A stretch of DNA of 64,000 bases. Origin: a virus. Where the stretch lies: the IMG/VR virus record IMGVR_UViG_3300009126_000404, positions 119,843 to 183,842 of that record; one strand, given 5' to 3'. The stretch's first letter is position 1. Each line of letters opens with the position of its first letter. The notes under the pieces are model-generated. The model saw only the letters and a list, made by a program, of their open reading frames with translations. It did no database searches and had not been told where the DNA came from. The position numbers and the translations under genes were made by a program. This document shows, one piece after another, positions 7,097-58,348 of the stretch.

Positions 7097-8329
7097 TTAA
7101 CTATTTATCGATTTATGCAATTCAATGAACGTTTCTTTCCAATTTGTTCCTCTTATTTCATCAAGTTTTTCTAAAAAATCTGTACAATTATAAGAATTAC
7201 CGTCATAATCTATATTATTGTGTAAATAATTTACTAATTGACGTATACAAAGTTTATCTATGTGTATTGAGTTAGTATACATATTTATAATATCTAATTT
7301 AGCTTGTTTAGGAAGGTGTTTTGCATCTAGCATATCAGGGTTTGATAGTATTCTTATATTAACGTGGTAATTATTAAAGTGATCTAATAAGTTTAATATT
7401 GTAAATGCATTAAGCATTTGCCAAGTAATACTTATTTCTATCTCTGTATTTGGTAATAATTTATTAATACGCTCTATATTTTCATTTAACTTATGCCATT
7501 TACTAGGAAAACGTATATAATCATTTTGCTCACCGTAATCATCTATACTACATCTAAGCATTAACTTTTTAAAGTGTTTCCATTGATCAATTGCACGTTG
7601 ATGTACATTTGTAATATTTGTGTCGTACTCTAGCACTACATTGTTACTTACACCACTGTCTATTAGATTTTGCAAAAATTTGTAGTGTGGCTCAACTAAC
7701 ATAGGCTCACCGCCTACTAGATATACATGTTCTAATTGATCTTTATGTTTATCTAACTGTTCCCAAAAGTGTTCACTTTCCCACCAATCATAATCCGATG
7801 CACGGTCTTTCTTTTGTTGTTTGTTTCCGTCCGAGATGTTTATTTTGGTACCGCTGTCGTAAAAATGATCAGTGGAGTGAACTTTTGCCCAGTCTTTATA
7901 CCACATACTACTACTTTGAGGTCCGCACATTACACATTTTAAATTGCATAAATTACCAAACCTTAAATCCCAATAGATAGGCATTTGTGTTGTGCTACCA
8001 TTAAGTGCTGTTACTTTTACTGCTTTATCGTAATCAAATACATCTTTGTACATTTCGTTTGTAAATGTACGTCTGCTTTTACCACCGTTATCTTCTTTAA
8101 CCCAACATGTATTACATTCTACAGGTTTTTCTCCTGCTAAGAATTGCTTACGAATCTTGCGAGTAAATTCGCTATTATGTATTTCTTCTATTGTATGATC
8201 TTTAAAGTTATGTCCAGTGAGTCCACCATTTACGTGGTTGCTCATTAAGCAACATACTCTACTAGTTCCGTTTGTTTTAGTAGCGGCATGTATCCAAGGA
8301 ATTGAACAAAAATTATTCTTCTGCATCAT
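7097..8329 (-). CDS. Radical SAM protein (phage twitch type) 1
   Basis: The 410-residue product carries the radical SAM [4Fe-4S] motif as CNLKCVMC (C-x3-C-x2-C, about residue 130) after DLRFGNLCN, followed by a YLVGGEPML strand typical of the partial TIM barrel. The N-terminus has FCSIPW and CC pairs, and CNTC near residue 75, so an extra Cys-rich domain of SPASM/twitch type precedes the barrel. Such proteins recur in T4-like marine phages with unknown substrate. Its start overlaps the next radical SAM gene, so the two are translationally coupled. It would need Fe-S clusters, which the phage ISC-like genes could supply. Confidence 0.85.
   Translation of the reverse strand: MMQKNNFCSIPWIHAATKTNGTSRVCCLMSNHVNGGLTGHNFKDHTIEEIHNSEFTRKIRKQFLAGEKPVECNTCWVKEDNGGKSRRTFTNEMYKDVFDYDKAVKVTALNGSTTQMPIYWDLRFGNLCNLKCVMCGPQSSSMWYKDWAKVHSTDHFYDSGTKINISDGNKQQKKDRASDYDWWESEHFWEQLDKHKDQLEHVYLVGGEPMLVEPHYKFLQNLIDSGVSNNVVLEYDTNITNVHQRAIDQWKHFKKLMLRCSIDDYGEQNDYIRFPSKWHKLNENIERINKLLPNTEIEISITWQMLNAFTILNLLDHFNNYHVNIRILSNPDMLDAKHLPKQAKLDIINMYTNSIHIDKLCIRQLVNYLHNNIDYDGNSYNCTDFLEKLDEIRGTNWKETFIELHKSINS
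7102..7109 (-). promoter_or_regulatory. Late promoter GATAAATA
   Basis: GATAAATAG lies 19 nt upstream of the ATG at 7082, with a ribosome-binding site between them. It overlaps the end of the upstream radical SAM gene. Confidence 0.6.
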
Positions 8330-9491
8330 TATTAATCCATTCTGATAGTTCTAAATCAAAACTTTCTAATGTAAGTGCACCATGTGTATCATAGTAATCT
8401 ACAAAATGCCTTACTGTTTCTTTACGTTTTGTAGTATTGTTAAATGGCTTACGCATCTCATTTATAACATGATCAACACCTTCTAGTCTACTTTTATGCT
8501 TTTCAAAAAATGCTAAACTTTCTTTTTTAAATCTATCAGGAATGTTTTCCATTAGTACTTCTGTCTTATTAACAACAGGTCGTATTTGTACTTTTGCATC
8601 TGGATAGTTATTCCATAAATATGTAATAAGTTTAGGTATGTGTCTTACACTTAAACTATTTGCTGTTATATCCCATACCGCCAATCTAAAGTTTTTGTAA
8701 TACTGATCCATTACTTGTAATTTTTCTTCCCATACTGTATCTTGCCTAGTCCACTCATCAGCTGCACCCCAACCATCTACACTAAATCTTATGAATACAT
8801 TTTCAACAGTTTTAAATTGCTTTAAATCTTTTTCTCTTAATAACCTTGTACCATTTGTATTAATTACAAAATTTGCTCTTGGAGCAAGTTTACCTAGTCT
8901 TTCTACAGTAGTAGGAAAGTTTTTAAGATAAAAAGGCTCACCGCCTGCTAAGTATACGTGCTTTAAATTTTTATCAACGCTTGAAATGATATTCTCCCAC
9001 GCTTGTGGATCATCACTCCAATCATAATTGCTTCTATGATATTTTTTTGCTTCTTTTTCTAAACGGCCTTCTTTCCAATTAAAATGCTTTGCCATTGATT
9101 TATGATTATGTAATATTTTATTACTGTTACCTGCGAAACACATAACACATGCTAAGTTACATACGTTACCTAATCTTAAATCTAATGCATGTATTTTATT
9201 ATCTTTAAATGGAACACCTTGGTTAATCATGCCCAACGCTTTTTGCCTAAAACTACGCACACCTTCGCGTTCTGGATCATAACATTTAAAACAACCCGCA
9301 GGTTCGCCACCGTTAGCAATTTCTGTTCTAACCTCATGCATTTCTGGGCTATTCCAAATATCACTTAATTTATAATCTTTAATATGATATTGTGAAAGTT
9401 TATTCTTTAGGTTTTTACAGCACAATGCTACATATCCATCATTATCGATGAATGTAAAATTGTTCGTATATATACAATATTTTTCTGTCAT
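8313..9491 (-). CDS. Radical SAM protein (phage twitch type) 2
   Basis: A 392-residue relative of the adjacent protein. It has the same layout: N-terminal cysteines (YCIY, ALCCKN), CFKC near residue 90, then the radical SAM motif CNLACVMC and the GGEPFYL strand. The two genes overlap by 17 bases and probably arose by duplication, though sequence identity is modest. Substrate unknown. Confidence 0.85.
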   Translation of the reverse strand: MTEKYCIYTNNFTFIDNDGYVALCCKNLKNKLSQYHIKDYKLSDIWNSPEMHEVRTEIANGGEPAGCFKCYDPEREGVRSFRQKALGMINQGVPFKDNKIHALDLRLGNVCNLACVMCFAGNSNKILHNHKSMAKHFNWKEGRLEKEAKKYHRSNYDWSDDPQAWENIISSVDKNLKHVYLAGGEPFYLKNFPTTVERLGKLAPRANFVINTNGTRLLREKDLKQFKTVENVFIRFSVDGWGAADEWTRQDTVWEEKLQVMDQYYKNFRLAVWDITANSLSVRHIPKLITYLWNNYPDAKVQIRPVVNKTEVLMENIPDRFKKESLAFFEKHKSRLEGVDHVINEMRKPFNNTTKRKETVRHFVDYYDTHGALTLESFDLELSEWINNDAEE

Positions 9492-13761: not shown

Positions 13762-14476
13762 ATACTTCTCCAGTTTCTATATAAGACCATATCTTCTTAA
13801 GTAATTTTTTTATAACAGGGTGACTACTGTCAAACCCAAATACTGAGAAATAAGCAAATAAATTAGGAGACAATAAATTCTCTTTCTCTCTGTATTGTGC
13901 AGTTTTTCCTGCCATACGTAATAATGTAAGAGCAGTTTCTTTATCTGTTTTACGTACTAATTCACTAGCGATGTTTTTAGCATACGCCTCTATTTCATCA
14001 TCGTTTCCTAAATATTCTCTAGATTTTTTTATTTTATCTGATAATCCTTTTACAGGTCTAAACTCACGTTGCTTTTTAAACCCTCTTTGTCGATATTGAT
14101 TTTTATGAATTAATTCATGTTCTAATACATCAATAAGTCTATTCTTAATATTGTTTACTCCTTCTGTACTAAAAGCAATTGTTTTATCTTTGTCAGAAAA
14201 TAATAAATCAATTTCAAAATGATCAAATCCTTCTTCATCTTCAACAGGATCATAAGAGGCATTCATATTCATATCGCCTTCTCCTACATTTTTAGATTGT
14301 GCAAATCCTACTTCATCAACACCTATTGAATTTAACTCAACTTGTAATTTTTTAGCAATATTTTTAAAGGAAATTTCTTTACCTGATCCAATAAAGGTTA
14401 AAAAAGGTGACAAGGCTGATTCAATATCTTGTCTAGTAATTAATTCGTTTTCATTTATTATATCATTAATTAACAT
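13751..14476 (-). CDS. Putative zinc metallopeptidase (HExxH) with leader
   Basis: 241 residues beginning MLINDIINENELI, the same nine-residue leader as the HAD gene next to it. Near residue 120 LEHELIHKNQYR gives the zincin motif H-E-x-x-H; a later acidic helix (DDEIEAYAKNIA) could provide the third zinc ligand. The family is not one I can name. A packaged peptidase acting early on host proteins is possible but speculative. Confidence 0.6.
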   Translation of the reverse strand: MLINDIINENELITRQDIESALSPFLTFIGSGKEISFKNIAKKLQVELNSIGVDEVGFAQSKNVGEGDMNMNASYDPVEDEEGFDHFEIDLLFSDKDKTIAFSTEGVNNIKNRLIDVLEHELIHKNQYRQRGFKKQREFRPVKGLSDKIKKSREYLGNDDEIEAYAKNIASELVRKTDKETALTLLRMAGKTAQYREKENLLSPNLFAYFSVFGFDSSHPVIKKLLKKIWSYIETGEVYAN

Positions 14477-16185
14477 TTTTTTAAATCCTGGTTTTCATCT
14501 AAAGATAATTTAGCCGCAATTGCCATTTGTCTTTTCTTTGCTTTGCTTTTACCTTTGAATTGTGGTGCATCACTTTTATAAAAGTCTTTAATAACATCAC
14601 TCATTGAAGTGTTTTTTGTTATTTTTTCATTAGTAACACTTGGTATTAGTACTTCTGGCATTTTTATATTAGAAATATCTTTGCCCATACTGTCTTTGTA
14701 TGCGTTAGCAAGTCTACTACGTTCGTTAGGATCATCTGTTCTATAGAATTGATTTGCAATGGCCATATCAGCAACTATCATGTCTGCTGGTGCTTCTATT
14801 ATTATTGGCTTGTAATAACCTATCTTTTTAAAATCTTTGTTTGTTAAACTATAAAATGTACTTTCCCATTTATCAGGATGTAATGCAAATCCTCCATTAC
14901 GTTCTGGAACTATCTCTGCTAATGGATCTGCTCCTTGATGGAACTTTCCTAATTTATATAAACGAACTAACATTCCTTCTGCAATAGGCTTTTTTAAATA
15001 ATATTCTAATCTACCTCGTTCTGTAGACAAGTCTGAATCTTCTTTTAATAAATCATCTTTTGTAGCAGTAAAATTACTTTGCTTCCATTGTTGTTTTAAT
15101 TTATTAAGTGTTGCACCCATTTCTGGACCTGGCTTCATACCTTTAGCAATTAAGTCTGCACCTGTTATAGGAAAGTCTGGAACATTGGCAGTAACCGCAT
15201 GATCAGCCATTTTACTTTGTCCTTGTAACTCTGCTAATGCTTGAATTTTTTCTTTTTCTACTCCATCAGCAATCATGTGTTCTACTTTAGTTTTATCAAG
15301 TGTATTGTTTTTATTCTTAACTAAAAAGTCTAATAGTACTGCTTCATTATTGCTTAACTTCCAACGCTTTGCTATATCTACACTATTACCTAATTGTGCT
15401 AATGCTACAATAGGATTACCTCTGTCTTTTACTTTAGTTAAGTCATTTGTTGCCAATCCTATGATTTTACTTACACCTGCTTTTTCCATCATTGCTAATA
15501 CACTTGCAACATTTTGTCCTGCAAGTAATTTACTCATTTCTTGCCAAACACGTTCAGCACTTATTTGTGTTAATCCTTTTGCATGTGTACTAATTGAATT
15601 TAATGTATCTCCATCCCATGTAGGCGTTGATAATCTACCTTGGAAACGAAAGTAACGTAATATTCGTAAATAATCTTCTGTAATTCTTTCTTCTGGATCG
15701 CCTACAAATTTACTTACTTTATCTTGTAAATCATCCATACCATTAAAGTAATCATATACATTACCATCAATATCCATACTCATAGCATTGTATGTTAGGT
15801 CTCTGCGTTTAGCATCTTCTTCCCAACTACGCACAAATTCAACTTCAGCATGTCTGCCGTCAGTTTCTTTGTCTGCTCTTAGTGTTGTTATCTCAAATGG
15901 TTTGCTGTCTATGATTGCTGTAATAGTACCATGTTCTAAACCTGTTGGTTTATATGATATACCTGCTTTATCAAGTATAGCAATCATTTCATCTGGTGTG
16001 GCGTCTGTAGCGAAGTCAATATCTTTAGGTGATTTTCCTAGTGCAATATCTCGTACTGCACCACCTACTATTCGCATTTCGTGATTGTTGTCTTTAAATA
16101 CTTTGTCAAGAGTTTGTATAGGCGTAGATATAATAGGTTTTATATTTAATCTTTCCTCGTATATAAGTAATTCACCGATACGCAT
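14470..16185 (-). CDS. cca: CCA-adding tRNA nucleotidyltransferase (class II) with leader
   Basis: 571 residues beginning MRIGELLIYEERL (shared leader). Class II CCA-adding/poly(A) polymerase motifs appear in order: GGAVRD, DIDFATDA (metal-binding Asp pair), the RRDLTYNAM motif, DYFNGMDDL, and EDYLRILRYFRF. A C-terminal region after residue 400 is phage-specific and ends in a Lys-rich tail. The enzyme adds or repairs 3' CCA; in this genome the tRNA-Thr gene lacks an encoded CCA, giving it a plausible native substrate. Poly(A) addition cannot be excluded from motifs. Confidence 0.85.
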   Translation of the reverse strand: MRIGELLIYEERLNIKPIISTPIQTLDKVFKDNNHEMRIVGGAVRDIALGKSPKDIDFATDATPDEMIAILDKAGISYKPTGLEHGTITAIIDSKPFEITTLRADKETDGRHAEVEFVRSWEEDAKRRDLTYNAMSMDIDGNVYDYFNGMDDLQDKVSKFVGDPEERITEDYLRILRYFRFQGRLSTPTWDGDTLNSISTHAKGLTQISAERVWQEMSKLLAGQNVASVLAMMEKAGVSKIIGLATNDLTKVKDRGNPIVALAQLGNSVDIAKRWKLSNNEAVLLDFLVKNKNNTLDKTKVEHMIADGVEKEKIQALAELQGQSKMADHAVTANVPDFPITGADLIAKGMKPGPEMGATLNKLKQQWKQSNFTATKDDLLKEDSDLSTERGRLEYYLKKPIAEGMLVRLYKLGKFHQGADPLAEIVPERNGGFALHPDKWESTFYSLTNKDFKKIGYYKPIIIEAPADMIVADMAIANQFYRTDDPNERSRLANAYKDSMGKDISNIKMPEVLIPSVTNEKITKNTSMSDVIKDFYKSDAPQFKGKSKAKKRQMAIAAKLSLDENQDLKKC

Positions 16186-30645: not shown

Positions 30646-30674
30646 AGAATAACAGAAAATATGTTATTTGTCAA
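30646..30674 (-). promoter_or_regulatory. Sigma70-type promoter, TTGACA-N17-TATTCT
   Basis: The -35 TTGACA overlaps the last codons of the radical SAM gene; the -10 TATTCT ends only 6 nt before ATG 30639, so the transcript would start at or next to the ATG. The spacer contains the inverted repeat AATAACA/TGTTATT. Confidence 0.65.
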
Positions 30675-31902
30675 CCAAGTTAGAGCCGTAAACTAGTTCA
30701 CCTAATTTCTCATTATAGTCATACAAATACATTCCTCTAAACTTATCTTGCTCTTTAGTAATATTTTTAAAAGATTGTAAATGAGAATCCGATGCATTTA
30801 TTGCCCGTCTCATGTCCGGCAATGATTCTATAAGAAATCTAGTTTCCTTAGTTGAGGCATATTTTGCCTCAAGTTTATCACATATAGCATATGCTTCTTT
30901 TTTAAAATTATCTGGTAAGTTTCCTACTCTAAAATAACTTGGAAATACAAGCAATCGTATATTACTCTCCATTTCGTGATCAGCTATAAAGTCTACAAAG
31001 TCAAGCATATTATCATAGTTAAATATTTGATAACTACTATTAATTTGAACTTTGAACCAATCTTTGTTAATTGCTTGATATAAGTACAGCTTTTTACATG
31101 TTTCTTCCATTTGGCTCCATGTAAACACTCCATTGCTTCTCATATATTCAAACATAGAGCCAACAGCATCAATACTAATATCTAAAACAAGTCTTTTAAG
31201 TTTATTAAACTTATCTAGTTTCTCAAAATCTAATTTTGATCCATTTGTTGTGATAACTATTTTAACTTTTTCTGGATGCCCGTATTCTTCAATAAGTTCC
31301 ATTAACTTATATGGGCTGTCGTCCATAAACGGTTCGCCACCTGTCATCCATATTTGTCTTATACCATCAAGTACACTTGGATTTGCTTCTAAATATTCAT
31401 TAATATTATTAAAATTTTTCTGATGTTGCTCTGGGACTTTTTTATATTCTTCAGGAAACAATGGATACATATGTTTCGCTTCAGGAATTAGACTGTTACT
31501 GTAGTTTGCACTACACATCCTGCATTTAAAATTACATACGTTACTAAAGTTAACAAACAGATGACTTATATTATTTCCACGTAACTTTGGATTAGTATAT
31601 GGTTCTGGATGGCCTAATGTGTCCATCATACTTTGTCCTAACCAATGTATTCTTTGACTCTTAGTACCAATTTTTTCTTTTTGCAAACAATGACTACAAC
31701 CTTGTGTGTCCCATTCCCCATCAAGCATTTGCTGTCTAAGTGCGACCATTTTATCACTTTCGTGACTGGCTCCCATGTCATCATCACTCATCATACATCT
31801 GCTCACAACTCCAGATGGATGCCAACTTATTGTATTAAAAGGTATTGGGCACCAACTTTTACTGTGTAAGTTCTTCCACGTACTGTCTTCTTTGAATTTA
31901 AT
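30664..31902 (-). CDS. Radical SAM protein 3, probable ATT start
   Basis: Translated from ATT at 31902 the product is 412 residues. The frame upstream of the first GTG/ATG at 31806 encodes SWCPIPFNTISWHPSG, the same Cys-Pro/Trp N-terminal motif seen in the other two phage radical SAM proteins, so the short start would remove a conserved part. A perfect TAGGAG site lies 7 nt before ATT 31900-31902, and no ATG, GTG or TTG is in frame. The radical SAM motif is CNFKCRMC, with TGGEPFMDD following. Substrate unknown. A sequencing error or ATA start are the alternatives. Confidence 0.8.
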   Translation of the reverse strand: MKFKEDSTWKNLHSKSWCPIPFNTISWHPSGVVSRCMMSDDDMGASHESDKMVALRQQMLDGEWDTQGCSHCLQKEKIGTKSQRIHWLGQSMMDTLGHPEPYTNPKLRGNNISHLFVNFSNVCNFKCRMCSANYSNSLIPEAKHMYPLFPEEYKKVPEQHQKNFNNINEYLEANPSVLDGIRQIWMTGGEPFMDDSPYKLMELIEEYGHPEKVKIVITTNGSKLDFEKLDKFNKLKRLVLDISIDAVGSMFEYMRSNGVFTWSQMEETCKKLYLYQAINKDWFKVQINSSYQIFNYDNMLDFVDFIADHEMESNIRLLVFPSYFRVGNLPDNFKKEAYAICDKLEAKYASTKETRFLIESLPDMRRAINASDSHLQSFKNITKEQDKFRGMYLYDYNEKLGELVYGSNLVDK

Positions 31903-34314: not shown

Positions 34315-34902
34315 TTAAAATTGAACTGTTATTCCAAATCCTAATTCTGTATCAGTTGATTCCCAATCATTGTTTAATGATTTAGTTAATTTTGCTGATA
34401 ATGAAGTAGATTCAGTTAACGCCAATGATGTACCAATATTAATATGTGGTGCATCTTTGCTTATATCAAAATAATCTCCTTCTGTAGATTTTAGTCTATA
34501 GCCAACTTCAGCATAAGGTTTTATAAGACCTAAGTCAATATTTGCACCTGCTGAAGGTGTCCAATGAATCTCAGATTTAGCAAATGTATCACCCCAATTA
34601 TACTCAACTTCACCGTCTACATATCCTGTAATACGACCTACTGGTATATCAAGAGTTTTACCGGCCGCAAGTCTATAATCACGGTTAGTGCCGTTATCAG
34701 TTAGTCCTGCTCCAATATCCAACACTTTGCCTATTGAATATACATCTAATGATCTAGATGTATCGTTTGTTGATAATTCATACCCAATATGAGTACTCTC
34801 AACAGCAGTTGAGATAGAAGTATTATCAAAATTTGCGGCGTTGGCCACACTAGCTAGAGCGACAGCAAATGCCGCCGAAATGATAGTCTTTAGCTTTTTC
34901 AT
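34315..34902 (-). CDS. Outer-membrane beta-barrel protein with signal peptide
   Basis: The ATG at 34902 is followed by a clear Sec signal peptide (MKKLKTIISAAFAVALASVA, cleavage after ANA), preceded by a GGA site. The 195-residue precursor then shows alternating beta strands (TGYVDGEVEYNWG, PYAEVGYRLKS) and ends GFGITVQF, with the C-terminal Phe typical of BAM substrates. It looks like an 8-10-strand porin-like barrel. A phage-coded outer-membrane protein could modify the host surface, for example against superinfection; this is inference. It follows the tmRNA and has its own terminator. Confidence 0.75.
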   Translation of the reverse strand: MKKLKTIISAAFAVALASVANAANFDNTSISTAVESTHIGYELSTNDTSRSLDVYSIGKVLDIGAGLTDNGTNRDYRLAAGKTLDIPVGRITGYVDGEVEYNWGDTFAKSEIHWTPSAGANIDLGLIKPYAEVGYRLKSTEGDYFDISKDAPHINIGTSLALTESTSLSAKLTKSLNNDWESTDTELGFGITVQF

Positions 34903-34975
34903 ATATTTTTCCTTTTTTTGAAATATCAAGTGTGTGTTTTGTGTGTGATTATATTGCTACGTGCTTTATAATATA

Positions 34976-35336
34976 GTAAGTTGATTCTGTTGCCAGGCTC
35001 AACTTACAAAACCCCTACATACCTAAATTAGGCTGCCATTGCCATTTCTGGCTCATAATTGTTATTTGCAATTATAAATTTCTTCGCGGTAACGGCGCTT
35101 AGATCCCGACAACTCCACTAAACCTATTAAATACCAGTCGAACCTATTTCAGCCCCATCAAAAACACTTTACAAGCAGTGACTTTACTTATCCTGTCTAT
35201 TACTACGGCGTTTCGCCATTTGTACATTGTAGTAACTCTGTCCTTTATGTGTTGTCTCATCTATAAAGTGTTTTTGGTGGAGCTGCTCGGTACCGCCCCG
35301 AGGTCCTGAATATCGTTGAGTTCGTTTCAACATTGC
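34976..35336 (-). ncRNA. ssrA: Permuted two-piece tmRNA
   Basis: The acceptor piece comes first (about 35336-35275) with T-arm CTCGG/CCGAG and 3' end CAGCTCCACCA. An intervening segment bounded by AAAACACTTTA and TAAAGTGTTTT, which can pair, would be removed. The coding piece begins at 35156 with GGGGCTGAAATAGGTTCGAC; GGGGCTG pairs with CAGCTCC of the acceptor piece. The tag frame (35069-35028) reads ANNNYEPEMAMAA then TAA. This is the alphaproteobacterial arrangement. The coding piece's 3' limit is set at the GTAAGTTGA/TCAACTTAC hairpin and is approximate. Its partner SmpB is not in the window. Confidence 0.9.
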
Positions 35337-35341
35337 TCTTT

Positions 35342-35374
35342 TATTTATGATAACACAAAACTAGTGTATGTCAA
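35342..35374 (-). promoter_or_regulatory. Overlapping sigma70 and late promoter of tmRNA
   Basis: TTGACA (inside the last iscU codons)-N16-TATCAT overlaps CATAAATA; both predict a start near 35336-35340, the likely 5' end of the tmRNA precursor. Confidence 0.65.
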
Positions 35375-35777
35375 CCGGTTTAGCGTTTATTTGTGCAGGT
35401 TCTAGGGTTTTTTTCTGGTAATCAGCTATTGCGGCCTTAATTGAGTCTTCCGCAAGTACACTACAATGAATTTTAACTGGTGGTAAAGCAAGTTGCTCTA
35501 CAATATCTGTATTCTTAATCTTTTTTGCTTCATCTAGTGTTTTACCTATGAGAACGGTAGTAACCATACTAGATGCCGCTATTGCTGAGCCACAACCGTA
35601 TGTTTTAAACTTTACATCTTCAATTATATCATCTTTAACTTTAATTTGTAGTTTCATAACGTCACCACAAGATGGTGCACCAACCATTCCGGTTCCTACA
35701 TCTACATCTTTAATGTCCATTTTACCTACATTTCGTGGGTTTTCGTAATGGTCTAAAACTTTCTTTGAATATGCCAT
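35361..35777 (-). CDS. iscU: IscU Fe-S cluster scaffold
   Basis: 138 residues. All three ligand cysteines are present: GAPSCGD, YGCGSAIAAS and the LPPVKIHCS motif that is bound by HscA in bacteria. Asp after the first Cys is kept. The protein assembles [2Fe-2S] clusters from sulfur given by IscS. It has a late promoter and AGGAG site, and its end holds the -35 of the tmRNA promoter. The phage IscS, ferredoxin and reductase genes are elsewhere in this window. Confidence 0.93.
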   Translation of the reverse strand: MAYSKKVLDHYENPRNVGKMDIKDVDVGTGMVGAPSCGDVMKLQIKVKDDIIEDVKFKTYGCGSAIAASSMVTTVLIGKTLDEAKKIKNTDIVEQLALPPVKIHCSVLAEDSIKAAIADYQKKTLEPAQINAKPVDIH

Positions 35778-36753: not shown

Positions 36754-38151
36754 ATGAAAAAATACAATACAAAAGAACTACAACAAAAAGATTGGAATCA
36801 CAATATTCATCCTTTTACGGATTTTTCCAATCGTAACCCTGCATTAATAGTATCATCGTCAGATGGTAATTATGTATATGACAGTGATGGCAATAAGTAT
36901 TTAGACGGTGCGGCTGGACTGTGGTGTGTAAACATTGGCTATAATCATCCTGTAATGAAAAAAGCAATTGCTGATCAGCTTGATGAAATACCTTATTATT
37001 CAACATTTGGATCAACAGTTTGTCCACCATCTATAGAACTTGCCGCAAAACTTGCAGAACTAGCACCTGGGGATTTAAATCATACATTTTTTGGCACAGG
37101 TGGATCAATGGCAAATGATACAGCAATACGTATTATACATTTTTACTTTAATAAACTTGGTAAGCCAACTAAGAAAAAGATTATCTCACGTGTAGATGGA
37201 TATCATGGCAGTACATATATGGCTATGACATTAACAGGCGTAAAATTTGACCATATTGGGTTTGATCTTGCTCCTGATTTAGTACATTATATATCATGCC
37301 CTAACAGTTATAGAAGAATTGAAGGTAACAATCCAACTAATGTTCGGTTAGTAACATTTTGTAATGAATTAGTAGAAGAATTTGAGAACAAAATACTTGA
37401 ACTAGGACCTGATAATGTTGCGGCATTTATAGCTGAACCTATCATGGGTGCAGGTGGTGTTATTGTTCCTCCACCGGGCTATCATAGAAGAATGAAAGAA
37501 GTATGTGAGAAATACGATATTCTTTATATTGCAGATGAAGTAGTAACTGCATTTGGTAGACTTGGACATTGGTTTGCATCTGAATCAGTATTTGGTATGG
37601 TGCCTGATATTATTACATGTGCTAAAGGAATATCATCAGCATACATTCCACTATCAGCAACTATATTGTCAGATAAAATTTACGATGTAATTAGTGATGG
37701 ACCACAAGAAGATGGAGCATTATTTACTCATGGATTTACATATGCAGGACACCCTGTTGCGTGTGCGGCTGGACTTGCTAACATTAAAATAATGGAAGAC
37801 GAAAAAATACTAGAACATGTACGTGAAGTTGGCCCATACTTTGAAGAACAACTAAAACAAATGAGTAAACACTCTATAGTTGGTAATGTGCGTGGTAGTC
37901 ATTATATGTTATGTATGGAACTAGTTAAAACAAAAGAAACTAAAGAATCATTTGATAGTAGTATTAAAGTTTGTGATAGGGTTGCTAAACACGCCCAAAG
38001 TCATGGCTTAATGATTAGATCAGTTGGAAATCATCTTGTTTTATCACCACCATTAACACTTACTAAAGAAAATATAGATGAAATAATAACAACATTAGAT
38101 GCAAGTTTTAGTGCTACTGAAAAAGAATTAATAGACGAGAGAATAAGATGA
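36754..38151 (+). CDS. Class III PLP-dependent aminotransferase
   Basis: 465 residues, full length. Fold-type I motifs are clear: GAAGLWCVNIGYNHP, FFGTGGSMANDTAIR, VDGYHGST, IADEVVTAFGRLG with the PLP-binding Asp, and the Schiff-base Lys in TCAKGISS. The closest families are omega-amino acid:pyruvate or taurine aminotransferases, judged by eye. It overlaps the next gene by ATGA. The amine substrate cannot be fixed from sequence. Confidence 0.88.
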   Translation: MKKYNTKELQQKDWNHNIHPFTDFSNRNPALIVSSSDGNYVYDSDGNKYLDGAAGLWCVNIGYNHPVMKKAIADQLDEIPYYSTFGSTVCPPSIELAAKLAELAPGDLNHTFFGTGGSMANDTAIRIIHFYFNKLGKPTKKKIISRVDGYHGSTYMAMTLTGVKFDHIGFDLAPDLVHYISCPNSYRRIEGNNPTNVRLVTFCNELVEEFENKILELGPDNVAAFIAEPIMGAGGVIVPPPGYHRRMKEVCEKYDILYIADEVVTAFGRLGHWFASESVFGMVPDIITCAKGISSAYIPLSATILSDKIYDVISDGPQEDGALFTHGFTYAGHPVACAAGLANIKIMEDEKILEHVREVGPYFEEQLKQMSKHSIVGNVRGSHYMLCMELVKTKETKESFDSSIKVCDRVAKHAQSHGLMIRSVGNHLVLSPPLTLTKENIDEIITTLDASFSATEKELIDERIR

Positions 38152-39179
38152 CTACAAATATACAAGAATTAACTATCCCAGATTATGAACGAGTAATCCA
38201 TGCTACAAACAGTGACACTGGATTAGATTGTTTAATAGCAATTCATTCTACAAAACTAGGACCAGCTATAGGTGGTTCACGATTTTGGCAATACGAAAAA
38301 ACACATGATGCTATAGAAGATGTATTAAAACTATCAAAAGGCATGACATATAAAAATAGTCTTGCTGGATTAAACGCCGGAGGAGGCAAAGCGGTTATCA
38401 ATTTGCGTAATGCAGAAAAAACTCCTGCTCTATTAAGAAGTTTAGGAGAAGTTGTAGATGCATGTAACGGTAGATATCTTACAGCAGAAGATGTAGGAAG
38501 TTCTCCAGCTGATATGCAAATAATCAATGAAATGACTAAACATGTTTTATTAACAGACAGAGATCCAAGCCCTGCAACTGCATTCGGAGTAATAAGGGGA
38601 ATGGAAGCTTCAGTTAATTTCCTAAGACAAGAAATGGCTCCTGGGCAAAGTTTAAAAGATTTACATATTTCTATTCAAGGACTAGGCCATGTAGGAATGT
38701 CACTGGCCAGAATGTTACATGATAAAGGTGCAATACTAACAGTTACAGATATAAATAAAGACAAATGTTTGGAAGTAAAAGAAAAGTATGACGCTTCAAT
38801 TGTAGAACCCGATGATATATATGATGTTGAGTGTGATATTTTTGCTCCGTGTGCATTAGGTGGGTCAGTTAATAAGGAAACTGTTGAAAGATTACGATGT
38901 AAAATCTTGTGTGGTGCCGCTAATAATCAATTATGTGTTTCAATGGTTGGTTATGCATTAAAAGATAAAGGAATTATAAATGTTCCAGATTTTCTTGTTA
39001 ATGCAGGTGGAGTAATTGACGCATATAAAGACTTTAGTCGTCTACCTTCAGATTTTCATGTAGCAAATATGATTGATGGAATCTATGATAGAGCTTTAAT
39101 ATGTTTAAAAATTGCAGCAGACAGCGATGTTCCAACAAATTTAATAGCCGAGCAAATGGCTGAAAAACGATTAAAATAA
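38148..39179 (+). CDS. Leu/Val/Phe-type amino-acid dehydrogenase
   Basis: 343 residues. The catalytic Lys lies in GMTYKNSLAGLNAGGGKA, the Rossmann motif is GLGHVGMSLA, and FAPCALGGSVN and NAGGVID complete the leucine dehydrogenase pattern. It converts branched or aromatic amino acids to keto acids with NAD(H) and ammonium. Together with the aminotransferase it could couple amino transfer to regeneration of the keto acid or amino donor. Confidence 0.85.
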   Translation: MTTNIQELTIPDYERVIHATNSDTGLDCLIAIHSTKLGPAIGGSRFWQYEKTHDAIEDVLKLSKGMTYKNSLAGLNAGGGKAVINLRNAEKTPALLRSLGEVVDACNGRYLTAEDVGSSPADMQIINEMTKHVLLTDRDPSPATAFGVIRGMEASVNFLRQEMAPGQSLKDLHISIQGLGHVGMSLARMLHDKGAILTVTDINKDKCLEVKEKYDASIVEPDDIYDVECDIFAPCALGGSVNKETVERLRCKILCGAANNQLCVSMVGYALKDKGIINVPDFLVNAGGVIDAYKDFSRLPSDFHVANMIDGIYDRALICLKIAADSDVPTNLIAEQMAEKRLK

Positions 39180-43025: not shown

Positions 43026-43328
43026 TTATTCTACTTTTTCTATTGTAACGTCTAACGGAAATTGATTCTGTCTTGCGTTAGTTATGGTTTCTACACATTT
43101 TTGTTCTGCTACTTCGTAGCTATATGTGCCTGCTATGCCGCGGCCCTTTTCGTGAACCTCAAGCATCACAGAGTTTGCTTCTTCTAAAGATCTATTAAAA
43201 ATATTCTGTAAAAGATTAACTACAAACTCCTGTGGAGTAGTATCATCATTAAGTAAAATAACATTATACCTTGACGGTAATTTTAATTTAACAATATCTG
43301 CTACGCCTTGTTCTGATGCTTGAGTCAT
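43026..43328 (-). CDS. clpS: ClpS N-degron adaptor
   Basis: 100 residues, full length. VILLNDDTTPQEFVV carries the Asp pair that binds the N-terminal residue, and EVHEKGRGIAG and EVAEQK complete the ClpS core. ClpS brings N-degron substrates to ClpA and inhibits ssrA degradation by ClpAP. The phage also has its own ClpA and ClpP. It follows hsp20 in the same operon. Confidence 0.93.
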   Translation of the reverse strand: MTQASEQGVADIVKLKLPSRYNVILLNDDTTPQEFVVNLLQNIFNRSLEEANSVMLEVHEKGRGIAGTYSYEVAEQKCVETITNARQNQFPLDVTIEKVE

Positions 43329-43337
43329 TTATTTACC

Positions 43338-43763
43338 TTAGTCTATTTTAATAGAACGTGGTTTCTTTTCATCTGGAATATTTTGTTCCAATGTGACTAC
43401 TAAGATACCATTGTCTAACTTAGACGATTTAACTTCTACATAATCAGCTAAACTAAATTCTCTTCTAAAGTTTCTAGTTCCTATGCCTTTATATAAATAT
43501 TCAATCTCTTCCTTGCTGTCTTTCTTTTCAGCATTGATTGAAAGTTGGTTACCGTCTTGTTCGACTTTTATTTCGTCTTTATCAAAGCCTGCGACTGCTA
43601 GGCTAATTGAATAACTACTGTCACTCACTTTTACAATATTGTAAGGTGGGTAACCGCCTGAAGTATTTGATGCAAACGTTGTAGTTAAGTCATCAAATAA
43701 TCTATCAAAGCCTATTGTAGCTTTATAAAAATCTGGAAGATTTAGTGTTGTTAGTCTTGTCAT
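43338..43763 (-). CDS. Hsp20/IbpA-type small heat-shock protein
   Basis: 141 residues. The alpha-crystallin core begins near NIVKVSDSSYSISLAVAGF and ends GILVVTLEQN, with the C-terminal PRSIKID holding an I-x-I-type tail. Hsp20 genes are common in T4-like marine phages. It heads the operon hsp20-clpS-amidotransferase-cytidylyltransferase-guaC. Confidence 0.92.
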   Translation of the reverse strand: MTRLTTLNLPDFYKATIGFDRLFDDLTTTFASNTSGGYPPYNIVKVSDSSYSISLAVAGFDKDEIKVEQDGNQLSINAEKKDSKEEIEYLYKGIGTRNFRREFSLADYVEVKSSKLDNGILVVTLEQNIPDEKKPRSIKID

Positions 43764-43886: not shown

Positions 43887-44144
43887 TTAATATAGTCTTT
43901 TTTTCTCTATAGTATCTTTCGCTATACGTCTACGATGTCTAGCACGTCCTGCGGCTTTTGCTTTAAGTCTTTTTTCTGTATTACTGATAAAGTATCTACG
44001 TTCACGTACTTCATTCATAATACCAGACTTTAAAACCATCTTTTTAAGTTTTCTAATGGCTTGTTCAACATTATTGTTTCTAACTATTACAGTTAGTCCA
44101 TCACCGGCTTGTTCGTCTCTATAGTTTTTCTTATATTTTCCCAT
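43887..44144 (-). CDS. rpsU: Ribosomal protein bS21
   Basis: 85 residues with the S21 core VIVRNNNVEQAIRKLKKMV, followed by RERRYF and a Lys/Arg-rich tail (KAAGRARHRRR). The length and extended tail suit alphaproteobacterial S21. S21 binds near the anti-Shine-Dalgarno end of 16S rRNA and affects mRNA selection; phage copies may exchange into host ribosomes. It is controlled by an operator-bearing sigma70 promoter. Confidence 0.93.
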   Translation of the reverse strand: MGKYKKNYRDEQAGDGLTVIVRNNNVEQAIRKLKKMVLKSGIMNEVRERRYFISNTEKRLKAKAAGRARHRRRIAKDTIEKKRLY

Positions 44145-44240: not shown

Positions 44241-44777
44241 TTATTTTATACTTGATATTGTGCCCGATACTCTATTACTATGAGTAATAATTCTCTCATA
44301 TTCTACTTCTAAGGTATTTGCGAACAAATTTAACAATTCTTTTGCCATATTTTGTCTACCACGTTCTCTGCCACGTAAAATAACTGTGACTGTTACTTTG
44401 TTATTTTTATCCAAAAATTTACGAGCCATTTTAGCCTTAGTTTCCAAATCATGAGTATCAATGTTTATACCCATTCGTATTTCTTTAGTCTCAATAATAC
44501 TTTCACGTTGTTTCTTTTTAGCCAATTTGTCTCTTTGCTTTAACTCATATATATGTTTGTTTAATTCAGTTATTTTACAAACTGGTGGTGTTGCTCTTTC
44601 AGCAATTAACACTAAATCTAAACCTACATTTTGAGCTTCTTTTATTGCATCATTAATAGACAGTATTTGGTTGTTGCCGTCTGGAAAGGAAACTCTAACT
44701 GTGTTGTGTTTTATTCTTTCGTTAGCTATAACAAAAGGACCTTTATATCTTTTTTTAAAAGGCTTATTTCGATGCAT
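44241..44777 (-). CDS. infC: Translation initiation factor IF-3
   Basis: 178 residues, full length. The N-domain motif PFVIANERIKHNTVRV, linker with many Lys residues, and C-domain (KVTVTVILRGRER) are complete. IF-3 controls start-codon fidelity and subunit splitting. Here it starts with ATG, inside the clpX end. It is beside the phage S21 gene, so two translation factors acting at the 30S platform are neighbours. One phage gene in the window seems to use an ATT start. Confidence 0.93.
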   Translation of the reverse strand: MHRNKPFKKRYKGPFVIANERIKHNTVRVSFPDGNNQILSINDAIKEAQNVGLDLVLIAERATPPVCKITELNKHIYELKQRDKLAKKKQRESIIETKEIRMGINIDTHDLETKAKMARKFLDKNNKVTVTVILRGRERGRQNMAKELLNLFANTLEVEYERIITHSNRVSGTISSIK

Positions 44778-45981
44778 TATTAGTATTGATAAATTGTGGC
44801 TCTGCAGTTTTTAAAATCACTTGTTCATTTATAATAATTTTTCTTACACCTTGGTTATATAATTCTGGTAACTTATATTGCGTTTCAAGTAGTGCGTCAT
44901 CTAATATTTTACGTAATCCTCTTGCACCTAGTTCTTCTTTTATAGCAATATTAGCAATTTCTTCTAATGCTACTATTGTAAACTCTATTTGTATTTTGTC
45001 AAGTAAAAATAGCTCTTTTATTTGGTCTATTATAGAATCAGTGGGTTCTGTTAGTATTCTAGTTAAATCATGCTTATTTAACGAATTTAGCACGTTTACG
45101 CTAGGTAAACGCCCTACAAACTCAGGTATTAAACCGTATTTTATTAAATCTTTTGTTTGTAAATAGTCTTGCCAATTGTCTATCTTATCGTCTTTAGACT
45201 CATTAAAACCTATTCTTGACTTCCCTAATCTATTAATTACAACATCTTCTAAACCAATAAATGCACCACCAACTACAAATAGTATGTTGGTAGTATCAAT
45301 TTTTACTTTTTCTGGATTATGTTTCGGTTTGTTAGGAACATTTACTACTGTACCTTCCATGAGCTTTAAAAGGCTCTGTTGTACACCTTCACCTGAAACG
45401 TCCCTACTTAAACTAACATAGTCATTACGTTTGGCTTTTTTGTCTATTTCATCAACATATATAATTCCTTGCTCAGTTAATTGTATATTATAATCTGCGG
45501 CTTGAAATAATTTATGTATTAGTACTTCTGCATCTTCTCCTGCATACCCACTTTCAGTAATAGTTGTAGCATCTGTAATAACCATAGGCACACCTAAAAA
45601 CTTTGAAAGTGTTTGCGCCATTAATGTTTTACCAGTTCCTGTGGGTCCTGCAAGTAAAACATTACTTTTTGTTAAGTTAGTTTCTGTGTTAGATGTAATT
45701 CTTTTATAATGATTGTATATCGCTACACTTAATGTCTTTTTTGCACGGTCCTGACTAATAACATGCCTATTTAAATCATCATGTATTTCTCTAGGTGTAG
45801 GAACTTCAAATGGTTTATTAATAACAGTGGTTGTAATTACTGGTTCATTTGTAACAATGCCATGACAGAGCTTTACACATTCACTACAAATATGGGTACC
45901 ATTTTCACCTGCTAATAGTTTTTTTACTTGTGTTGCGTCTTTATTGCAGAAATTGCAAATTGTGGCAGTACTAGATTTCAT
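44764..45981 (-). CDS. clpX: ClpX AAA+ unfoldase
   Basis: 405 residues. The C4 zinc-binding domain (CNFC and CSEC, residues 9-37), Walker A AGPTGTGKTLMA, Walker B IIYVDEIDK and sensor regions are complete. SRIGFNE supplies the IGF loop for docking on ClpP. The pore-1 loop reads GYAG instead of the usual GYVG, and the RKH loop is represented by PKH. ClpX degrades ssrA-tagged proteins with ClpP. It is followed by infC and lies in the long late operon from 48.3 kb. Confidence 0.95.
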   Translation of the reverse strand: MKSSTATICNFCNKDATQVKKLLAGENGTHICSECVKLCHGIVTNEPVITTTVINKPFEVPTPREIHDDLNRHVISQDRAKKTLSVAIYNHYKRITSNTETNLTKSNVLLAGPTGTGKTLMAQTLSKFLGVPMVITDATTITESGYAGEDAEVLIHKLFQAADYNIQLTEQGIIYVDEIDKKAKRNDYVSLSRDVSGEGVQQSLLKLMEGTVVNVPNKPKHNPEKVKIDTTNILFVVGGAFIGLEDVVINRLGKSRIGFNESKDDKIDNWQDYLQTKDLIKYGLIPEFVGRLPSVNVLNSLNKHDLTRILTEPTDSIIDQIKELFLLDKIQIEFTIVALEEIANIAIKEELGARGLRKILDDALLETQYKLPELYNQGVRKIIINEQVILKTAEPQFINTNNASK

Positions 45982-46433
45982 TAAAGTTTTTCATTAATAT
46001 ATTCTGGGCTCATTTGTACTTTTATATAATTATTAATGTCAGTTAATGACCTAACAACTAAATTAGTACCTGTAGCATTAATTAATTTTACAGTTTCCCT
46101 TCTTTTATATTTATCGCTGTAAAATAGTACTGTATTTTGTGATTCTTTTGATTTTAATAAACCTGTCATGATATCTTCCCATGCACACGTATCTACATCA
46201 ATAATCATAAAATCACATGTTTTGGAATTATTCCATATCCAAGGTAATGTCCCTGAATTAGTTTTTTTATCTTGTACTAGGAAAACAATACTTGTTGCTA
46301 TAAGTTTTTCAAATAATTCTTTTATTGAAGAAATTAAATCATTGTTAGTGCTTGAAACCATAATACTTATTCCATGTTCTGTCATGTAAAGATCTGGTGG
46401 CGTTACAGTGTAACTGCTATTGTCTAATTTCAT
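45981..46433 (-). CDS. Unknown 150-aa phage protein
   Basis: Begins MKLDNSSYTVTPPDLYMTEH. The layout of alternating strands and helices (CDFMIIDVDTCAWEDIMTG) suggests a response-regulator-like or Rossmann-like fold, but no family is recognised. The TPPDLYM start recalls T4-like cyanophage proteins. It overlaps clpX by TAATG. Confidence 0.6.
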   Translation of the reverse strand: MKLDNSSYTVTPPDLYMTEHGISIMVSSTNNDLISSIKELFEKLIATSIVFLVQDKKTNSGTLPWIWNNSKTCDFMIIDVDTCAWEDIMTGLLKSKESQNTVLFYSDKYKRRETVKLINATGTNLVVRSLTDINNYIKVQMSPEYINEKL

Positions 46434-57283: not shown

Positions 57284-58348
57284 TTAAAGTTCTGTTTTTT
57301 CTGTTTGAATATCATATCTAGCTATTTTGTCTACTACTCCACACTGCTGAATGCATAAATTACATGGCTTATTATTATCTAAACCAGTTTTTAAATCTGT
57401 CCACCATTTGTGATTCATAATTTCATTTAAACTGTGTTTCTCTATCTCATTCCAGCCTTTCTCGTATGGAGTAAAATAGGCTTCTTCTAATAACTTTTGT
57501 TGGAACAGATCATATGAAGCCGCACTAAACATACAACAAGGATATATGTATCCTTCTGGCCTTACAAATATCCCTTCTTTACTAACACATTGATCATCAA
57601 TATATTTATAATTGTCAATTATTTGATTAAGTCCTTTTTCAAGTTTTGCAAATGACTTTTCTTTGAATTTATTATTATATTCTTTTGCTACAAATTCTGT
57701 CTTATGAAAATTAGTTTTAGCGTTTTTCATTAATAATTCTAGGTTCGCTGAATATATATTCTGTCTTGTACCAAAACTCTTACACCCTATTTCTTTTGCA
57801 AAAATTCTTACTTCATTAACTTGGTGTTTATTCCAAGGAAATACTACCATTTGCCATGATGGACTTCCGCCTCCTTTTACAAATGCACGTAAATTGTCAA
57901 TGACTCTAGACCATTGTACTCCAATACGATAAATGTGATTTGTATCTTCAAGCCCATCTATACTAAATTGTAAATCATAATGATTTACAGAGCTTAACAG
58001 TTTGGCTAATTTTTCATAATAATCAGGATTCCTTAAACCCCCATTAGTATGAATATTGAAACGTACACCTGGTCTTAACTTTATAGCTACTTCTAATATT
58101 TCTAACAAATTTGGATGAGCAAGTGGATCGCCAGCAGTGCCTATGAATTCTATTAACACATCATCATCAACACACGGATCAGAAAGTATTTTTGTTATAT
58201 TTTTAACACTTAAATGCTGATTAAAGTCAACTAACGGGTTTAACCATACTCCATTATCCTCAGACTGAAACCTAGCACACACAGGACAGAAACTATTGCA
58301 AGTTGTTGTAACTTCAAATTCAATTGTTCTAACCTTTTTGTAAATCAT
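57284..58348 (-). CDS. Radical SAM/SPASM protein 4
   Basis: 354 residues. The motif CNSFCPVC lies at residues 17-24, near the N-terminus as in normal SPASM enzymes, followed by GTAGDPLAHPN. A C-terminal SPASM-like domain shows YIYPCCMF and CNLCIQQC, able to hold extra clusters. Unlike the other three it lacks an N-terminal Cys-rich domain. It is next to iscS in one operon. Substrate unknown. Confidence 0.88.
   Translation of the reverse strand: MIYKKVRTIEFEVTTTCNSFCPVCARFQSEDNGVWLNPLVDFNQHLSVKNITKILSDPCVDDDVLIEFIGTAGDPLAHPNLLEILEVAIKLRPGVRFNIHTNGGLRNPDYYEKLAKLLSSVNHYDLQFSIDGLEDTNHIYRIGVQWSRVIDNLRAFVKGGGSPSWQMVVFPWNKHQVNEVRIFAKEIGCKSFGTRQNIYSANLELLMKNAKTNFHKTEFVAKEYNNKFKEKSFAKLEKGLNQIIDNYKYIDDQCVSKEGIFVRPEGYIYPCCMFSAASYDLFQQKLLEEAYFTPYEKGWNEIEKHSLNEIMNHKWWTDLKTGLDNNKPCNLCIQQCGVVDKIARYDIQTEKTEL

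Follow-up and report, generated by a model that had tools for sequence, protein, structure and literature searches.

Organization of the tmRNA locus

A circularly permuted, two-piece tmRNA gene of the alphaproteobacterial type is located on the minus strand of the window, a stretch of 64,000 nucleotides that corresponds to positions 119,843 to 183,842 of the IMG/VR virus record IMGVR_UViG_3300009126_000404 (G000). The record is 183,842 bp long, lacks end repeats, and encodes a T4-type DNA polymerase which is closest to those of Atu_ph07 and Phosso (48% identical), followed by those of phages of about 350 kb. The missing end repeats and the sizes of the phages with the closest polymerases (350-490 kb) make it probable that G000 is a piece of a larger genome. 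The virus record, the T4-type polymerase and the occurrence of the same locus in related phages all point to a phage-borne origin of the tmRNA gene, as had been proposed in an earlier note made from the sequence alone.

Genes encoding a peroxiredoxin, IscU and an outer-membrane-like protein surround the tmRNA gene and share its strand (Table 1), and the Pfam matches of the neighbours confirm the position between iscU and the outer-membrane-like protein that the earlier note had described. A cassette encoding ClpX, IF-3, bS21, Hsp20 and ClpS lies about 9.4 kb upstream of the tmRNA gene, with the gene for ClpP 3 kb further, and G000 possesses a second ClpP-like gene at G000:93196-93642. Genes for a class III aminotransferase and a Glu/Leu/Phe/Val dehydrogenase (window 36754-39179, plus strand) are found between the Clp cassette and the tmRNA gene. 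The window also contains eight tRNA genes and a gene for a CCA-adding enzyme (tRNA nucleotidyltransferase; 14470-16185, minus strand). Many related radical-SAM/SPASM-like proteins are present (L002-L006; window 7097-9491, 30664-31806 and 57284-58348), and about 23 ORFs of the phage genome match one region of the sibling locus L326.

Table 1. Positions of the tmRNA elements and associated genes within the window
Feature	Position	Strand	Basis or remark
tmRNA acceptor piece	35275-35340	-	RF01849 and RF04321 matches; 5' region pairs with coding piece
T-arm of acceptor piece	35302-35286	-	Sequence
Acceptor 3' strand CAGCTCC	35285-35279	-	Followed by A and the encoded CCA (35277-35275)
Intervening segment, 118 nt	35157-35274	-	Sequence; removal expected (putative); has inner hairpins
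tmRNA coding piece	34976-35156	-	RF01849, full-length; D-loop/SmpB-site consensus, PK1, tag frame
Acceptor 5' strand GGGGCTG	35156-35150	-	Start of coding piece
3' terminal hairpin of coding piece	35007-34976	-	
Tag reading frame, ANNNYEPEMAMAA-stop	35028-35069	-	ARAGORN; resume codon GCA (alanine)
Likely dedicated promoter	35347-35374	-	TTGACA, 16 nt, TATCAT, extended TG; overlaps iscU 3' end
iscU (NifU_N)	35361-35777	-	PF01592 E 5e-51, PHROG 8429; directly upstream of tmRNA
Outer-membrane beta-barrel-like protein	34315-34929	-	PF24653 Phage_OMP E 3.6e-7; directly downstream of tmRNA
Phage ClpA-like ATPase, 752 aa	23711-25969	-	PHROG 4871 E 2e-225; Clp_N, AAA_2, ClpB_D2-small
Phage ClpS	43026-43328	-	PF02617 E 7e-29
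Hsp20	43338-43763	-	PF00011
Ribosomal protein bS21	43887-44144	-	PF01165
IF-3 (translation initiation factor)	44241-44777	-	PF00707, PF05198; adjoins clpX
Phage ClpX, 405 aa	44764-45981	-	Pfam; PDB ClpX E 4e-113; zinc finger, AAA domain
150-aa protein	45981-46433	-	Receiver-like predicted fold; stop overlaps clpX start
Phage ClpP, 195 aa	49109-49696	-	PF00574 256 bits; Ser, His, Asp catalytic motifs kept relative to solved ClpP

The identity of the gene as an alphaproteobacterial-type permuted tmRNA, which the earlier note had claimed, is borne out by two Rfam models and by ARAGORN. The full RF01849 (alpha_tmRNA) model (1-355), named in that note as the check on its proposal, matches positions 34975-35378 of the minus strand with 110.4 bits (E 3e-29; gathering cut-off 50), and the whole RF04321 (tmRNA_permuted) model matches 35028-35336 of the same strand with 115.4 bits (E 8.5e-22; gathering cut-off 47). 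ARAGORN predicts a permuted tmRNA at c[34937,35367] with the tag ANNNYEPEMAMAA, in agreement with the tag frame read previously. The range given in the earlier note, 34976-35336, spans both mature pieces, and the likely promoter is located just 5' of it. That note mentioned neither this promoter nor the Clp genes, nor the precedents in the literature.

As the sequence confirms, the acceptor piece comes first and is followed by the 118-nt intervening segment and then by the coding piece. The ends of the intervening segment, AAAACACTTTA (35274-35264) and TAAAGTGTTTT (35171-35161), pair over 11 bp, and in the parsed phage relatives the segment is between 7 and 226 nt long. The pairing of GGGGCTG with CAGCTCC ahead of the CCA end, also seen previously, holds over 7 bp of acceptor stem in which the sole wobble is G3-U70, the alanine identity pair of tmRNA. 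The region from 35145 to 35285 folds with -44.8 kcal/mol (z = -6.3 versus shuffles), and the fold of the whole gene has z = -5.4.

Conservation of the promoter and RNA structure

The tmRNA gene likely has its own dedicated promoter, which matches the consensus at 11 of 12 positions. Promoter-like matches exceed chance throughout this AT-rich region (24 versus 14 in shuffles), so the evidence for the promoter is its conservation and not the match itself. TTGACA together with TATCAT or TATAAATA, 16-17 nt apart, occurs at the same place in 17 of 17 close-relative sequences, some of them near-identical, and the element is kept even in close relatives that have a different upstream gene. It was not seen at three distant phage tmRNAs (L228, L231 and L237). 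The promoter resembles a host-type (early) promoter, while the form with TATAAATA also resembles the T4 late element.

A scan of IMG/VR for the alphaproteobacterial acceptor signature yielded at least 120 stretches. Such tmRNAs are therefore common in viral contigs, although some of these contigs may belong to prophages or bacteria. Among the matches listed and the clpX relatives, 59 non-identical viral permuted tmRNAs were parsed; all of them form the seven acceptor pairs, of which pairs 1-4 were fixed by the parser, and all keep G3-U70. Because the parser demanded the first four pairs, only positions 5-7 provide a test, and about 10 distinct compensated combinations were seen there in these 59 tmRNAs. 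The T-stem is Watson-Crick throughout in 17 phage sequences, with compensatory changes at four of its five pairs. PK1, located 5' of the tag, pairs at 91% versus 72% in shuffles, a percentage biased towards the chosen structure since its helices were selected by visual inspection of these very sequences. The slid-partner control is therefore the one to weigh, and it gives PK1 a covariation score of 0.439 against 0.047 or less for slid partners, a score equalled in none of 500 shuffles. In each of the 13 aligned relatives the tag frame closes with Ala-Ala-stop and shows synonymous changes (GCA/GCG, GCC/GCT and TAA/TAG), and no broken tags were seen in sibling phages within the clade. The compensated acceptor stem, T-stem and PK1, along with the conserved promoter, indicate that the tmRNA gene is under selection and is no relic.

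The peptide tag and the origin of the phage tmRNA

Tags of the sampled alphaproteobacteria are mostly 12 amino acids long and of the type ANDNYAPVALAA, while those of the phage clade mostly have 13 amino acids with PEMA or PAMA. The length of 13 is not exclusive to phages, because one sampled bacterium has a similar tag, ANDNRAPAMAVAA. For L143, the ARAGORN tag ANYEPEMAIAA probably starts one GCA late, and the alignment fits ANANYEPEMAIAA. Permuted tmRNAs on three viral contigs (L070, L102 and L093) have predicted tags of 29-31 amino acids in which the alanine-rich tail is kept. It is conceivable that a tag so unlike the 12-residue tags of sampled hosts marks the phage tmRNA as a decoy or competitor that displaces the host tmRNA, with the tag being degraded differently or the ribosomes being freed without efficient degradation. 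Such a role is distinctly unlikely, however, as the tag, unlike that of DS6A, retains its complete frame with resume codon and AA terminus.

The earlier note held that the tmRNA indicates the host group and suggested comparing its tag with those of candidate hosts. A degenerate DNA pattern for ANxNYxPEMA matched just two loci in 85k species genomes, both on phage-like contigs inside MAGs, and host assignment from the tag was rejected on this ground. A covariance model of the phage-clade coding piece scored at most 52.6 bits on the bacterial loci of 385 alphaproteobacterial genomes and 137.5 bits on a phage-like contig inside one MAG, the second of the two matched by the pattern. In a tree constructed without the tag codons, which has moderate support and is based on short sequences and an incomplete bacterial sample, the sampled bacteria cluster and the phage tmRNAs fall outside, nested in no sampled alphaproteobacterial lineage. 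The tmRNA of phage Melnitz, moreover, is of the alphaproteobacterial type and is paired with a gammaproteobacterial host (PMC9004378). Given the host of Melnitz, the low bacterial model scores and the placement in the tree, the tag and sequence name no host, and the tmRNA is a weak guide to it. Phage-type tags are found on L238 (PBPT01000016.1) and L239 (PALK01000009.1), phage-like contigs in Neomarinimicrobiota and Rickettsiales MAGs.

Since the phage tmRNAs stand apart from the sampled bacteria in both model scores and the tree, they look like an old phage lineage rather than a recent capture. A near-identical ssrA with its flank was not found in a bacterial chromosome among the 385 alphaproteobacterial genomes. 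Phages commonly integrate at host ssrA, and captured pieces of it are known (PMC9004378), which might suggest that the phage tmRNA gene was acquired recently and by accident and has no phage role. This is highly improbable, as the position, promoter, structure and tag frame are conserved across divergent relatives and the 385 genomes hold no close bacterial source.

Comparison with known phages

A two-piece tmRNA has already been published for the Methylophilales phage Melnitz (2022), and the accompanying survey counted 402 tmRNA-bearing phages with 133 distinct tmRNAs, of which 53 were two-piece and 50 of those 53 marine or aquatic (PMC9004378). Bradyrhizobium phages with tmRNA have been reported (PMC12656738), as have phage Clp proteins (PMC6102473, PMC7824862, PMC11242549). 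No paper tying a phage tmRNA to phage ClpXP was found in the open-access literature. A phage-borne two-piece tmRNA is thus known; what goes beyond precedent at the locus described here is the conserved promoter of its own, the linkage to clpX, the separation of the phage tmRNAs and their type of tag from those of the sampled bacteria, and the fact that no SmpB gene was found.

Melnitz and the pelagimyophages are marine myophages that resemble the large, marine-type phage of G000 in having a permuted alphaproteobacterial-type tmRNA behind an early-type promoter (PMC9004378). The Melnitz tmRNA is reportedly under the control of a glutamine riboswitch, whereas no Rfam riboswitch match occurs within the window, and a glutamine riboswitch was accordingly rejected for G000. 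Clp proteins go unmentioned for Melnitz (PMC9004378), while G000 has ClpX, ClpP, ClpA and ClpS. In HTVC008M, a member of the same group, the permuted tmRNA is near a peroxiredoxin gene as in G000; it is unannotated in record KC465899 (L237), at 45103-45414. The DNA polymerase of HTVC008M is 26% identical to that of G000, versus 48% for Atu_ph07 and Phosso, and matches were limited to 13 proteins, which places HTVC008M in a different lineage and discounts close kinship.

The Sinorhizobium jumbo phages AP-J-162 (PMC11242549) and Phosso share with G000 a tmRNA and a clpX beside the IF-3 gene. Phosso also has clpP, and its permuted tmRNA (113 bits), unannotated in PV764938 at 349596-350198, is about 31 kb from clpX as opposed to 7.9-11.3 kb in the clade of G000. 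The passages found on AP-J-162 draw no connection between tmRNA and Clp genes (PMC11242549). Agrobacterium phage Atu_ph07 (PMC6102473) is like G000 in having ClpX, ClpP, ClpS, ClpA and the clpX-IF3 pair, and Pseudomonas phage PA5oct in having ClpX, ClpP and ClpS, with the order clpX-bS21-Hsp20-ClpS. Unlike in G000, a permuted tmRNA was looked for and not found in Atu_ph07 and PA5oct. The record of Acinetobacter 'phage MD-2021a' (hit H2) was rejected as a phage, as it reads as a bacterial chromosome. Alphaproteobacterial ssrA, such as that of Caulobacter (Keiler 2000, cited in PMC9004378), has the same piece order, acceptor stem, T-arm, resume codon and AA end as the phage gene, but differs from the phage clade in its usually 12-residue tags, its shorter intervening segments in the sample, and its low sequence similarity.

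Linkage to clpX and the phage Clp proteins

Proteins tagged by tmRNA are normally destroyed by a protease that includes ClpX. Among 50 viral records encoding a related ClpX, 24 have a permuted tmRNA that exceeds the cut-off. Where ClpX is at least 62% identical and enough contig is available, the tmRNA gene is 7.9-11.3 kb downstream of clpX and on the same strand in 15 of 15 records; two of these are near-copies of the phage in the window and the others are related, so the linkage reflects descent and retention and not 15 independent events. Four further records at this level of identity lack a tmRNA match and end before the expected site, one of them inside iscU. In the sibling G013, iscU (81.8% identical) is at the same distance from clpX, and the contig stops there. 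Phages with a more distant ClpX have the tmRNA elsewhere or lack it. The idea that a one-piece tmRNA takes the place of the permuted form in those clpX records that lack it was dismissed, since Bacillus phage G and a 504-kb record were the only ones with a one-piece match above cut-off. The ClpX zinc finger was found in one of 30 tmRNA-bearing viral records of at least 20 kb, most of which are fragments, and the 29 records without it suggest that a phage tmRNA needs no phage ClpX.

The phage ClpX has the IGF loop, Walker motifs and arginine finger expected of a ClpX that docks to ClpP (IGF, GPTGTGKT, GRLP and GARGLR), so that its docking and ATPase motifs are intact. In E. coli ClpX, the ssrA tag is contacted by Tyr153, Val154, Thr199, Val202, Arg228 and His230; a Thr199Ser substitution has a roughly fourfold KM cost and Arg228Ala lowers ssrA specificity (PMC7652416). 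In the ClpX of the window, Tyr153, Val202 and His230 are kept, whereas Val154, Thr199 and Arg228 are replaced by Ala, Ser and Pro, respectively. This ClpX therefore lacks the E. coli-type set of six contact residues, which bears on how the tag is read and not on its identity as ClpX. Ala154, Ser199 and an RKH loop without Arg228 are common to ClpX relatives down to about 54% identity. Among relatives L130-L206, the full RKH loop is often kept in more distant phage ClpX proteins, and Arg228 is absent throughout the close clade. Because the clade lacks Arg228 and has V154A and T199S, all at positions with which E. coli ClpX recognizes the ssrA tag, degradation of the tag by phage ClpX is doubtful. 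The specificity of the phage ClpX has probably shifted, whether by disfavoring ssrA tags or by favoring the tag of the phage.

The 150-aa protein encoded next to clpX is conserved at that place in about 30 phage loci and has a conserved Asp79 and an invariant Asp81. Its AlphaFold2 model (pLDDT 84.8) has a receiver domain as the best PDB match (E 5e-4, TM ~0.5). RssB and CpdR are receiver-fold ClpX adaptors in bacteria, and a similar function for the 150-aa protein, as suggested by its predicted fold, is a lead only. SspB was rejected as its identity, as there is no PF04386 match in G000 and the predicted fold is receiver-like. A search for SmpB in G000 and 29 further phage records, complete jumbo phages included, found no such gene, so host SmpB is expected to serve the phage tmRNA. 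Alternatively, smpB could sit in the missing part of G000, which is probably a fragment.

A dedicated pair of phage tag and phage protease is possible from these sequences. In such a private degradation pathway, a tag with an extra residue and an EM motif would be read by the phage ClpX with its altered loops, perhaps aided by the receiver-like protein. The conserved linkage of tmRNA and clpX would fit this scheme, but genes separated by 7.9-11.3 kb do not form an operon and their order may merely reflect common descent. The recognition loops of ClpX are altered alike across the clade, yet loss of Arg228 would weaken tag binding if the E. coli rules hold. In species genomes the ANxNYxPEMA tag is confined to two phage-like contigs, but the tag retains the Ala-Ala terminus that ordinary ClpX reads, and ClpX is absent from the examined contigs of other phages with similar tags. 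Further points in favor are the presence of ClpP, ClpA and ClpS in the same genome and the overlap of clpX with the gene for the receiver-like protein, given the bacterial adaptors of this fold, although the match to the receiver fold is weak. On balance, a private pathway is unlikely. The fuller proposal that the phage-type tag is degraded by the rebuilt-loop ClpX together with phage ClpP, perhaps with a receiver-fold adaptor, in preference to host substrates is quite unlikely.

A proposed role for the phage tmRNA

The preferred reading, to which a probability of about 0.8 is assigned, is that this is a genuine phage tmRNA which has its own promoter, is expressed in infection, tags chains for Clp degradation and frees ribosomes. 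Expression, processing, charging, tagging and the identity of the protease are steps that we infer. The precursor would be transcribed from its own promoter during infection, and host tRNA-processing enzymes would presumably cut it into the acceptor and coding pieces, which would stay joined by the acceptor stem. Host alanyl-tRNA synthetase would charge the tmRNA via G3-U70, and host SmpB would deliver it to ribosomes that have stalled on messages that were cut or lack a stop codon. The unfinished chain would then gain the tag (A)ANNNYEPEMAMAA and be destroyed by Clp proteases, either those of the host or phage ClpXP/ClpAP. The phage would benefit by having ribosomes and amino acids released during the breakdown of host messages. 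Tagging of the products of cut messages, the role suggested in the earlier note, would be reasonable and is near the published proposal that phage tmRNAs serve in the upkeep of hijacked machinery or in host protein recycling (PMC9004378).

The clade provides a testable setting for the question of why lytic phages keep tmRNA genes. In all relatives that can be checked, a tmRNA gene that likely has its own promoter is found near the gene for a phage ClpX, with ClpP, ClpA and ClpS encoded in the same genome and a type of tag that was not found in the sampled bacterial chromosomes.
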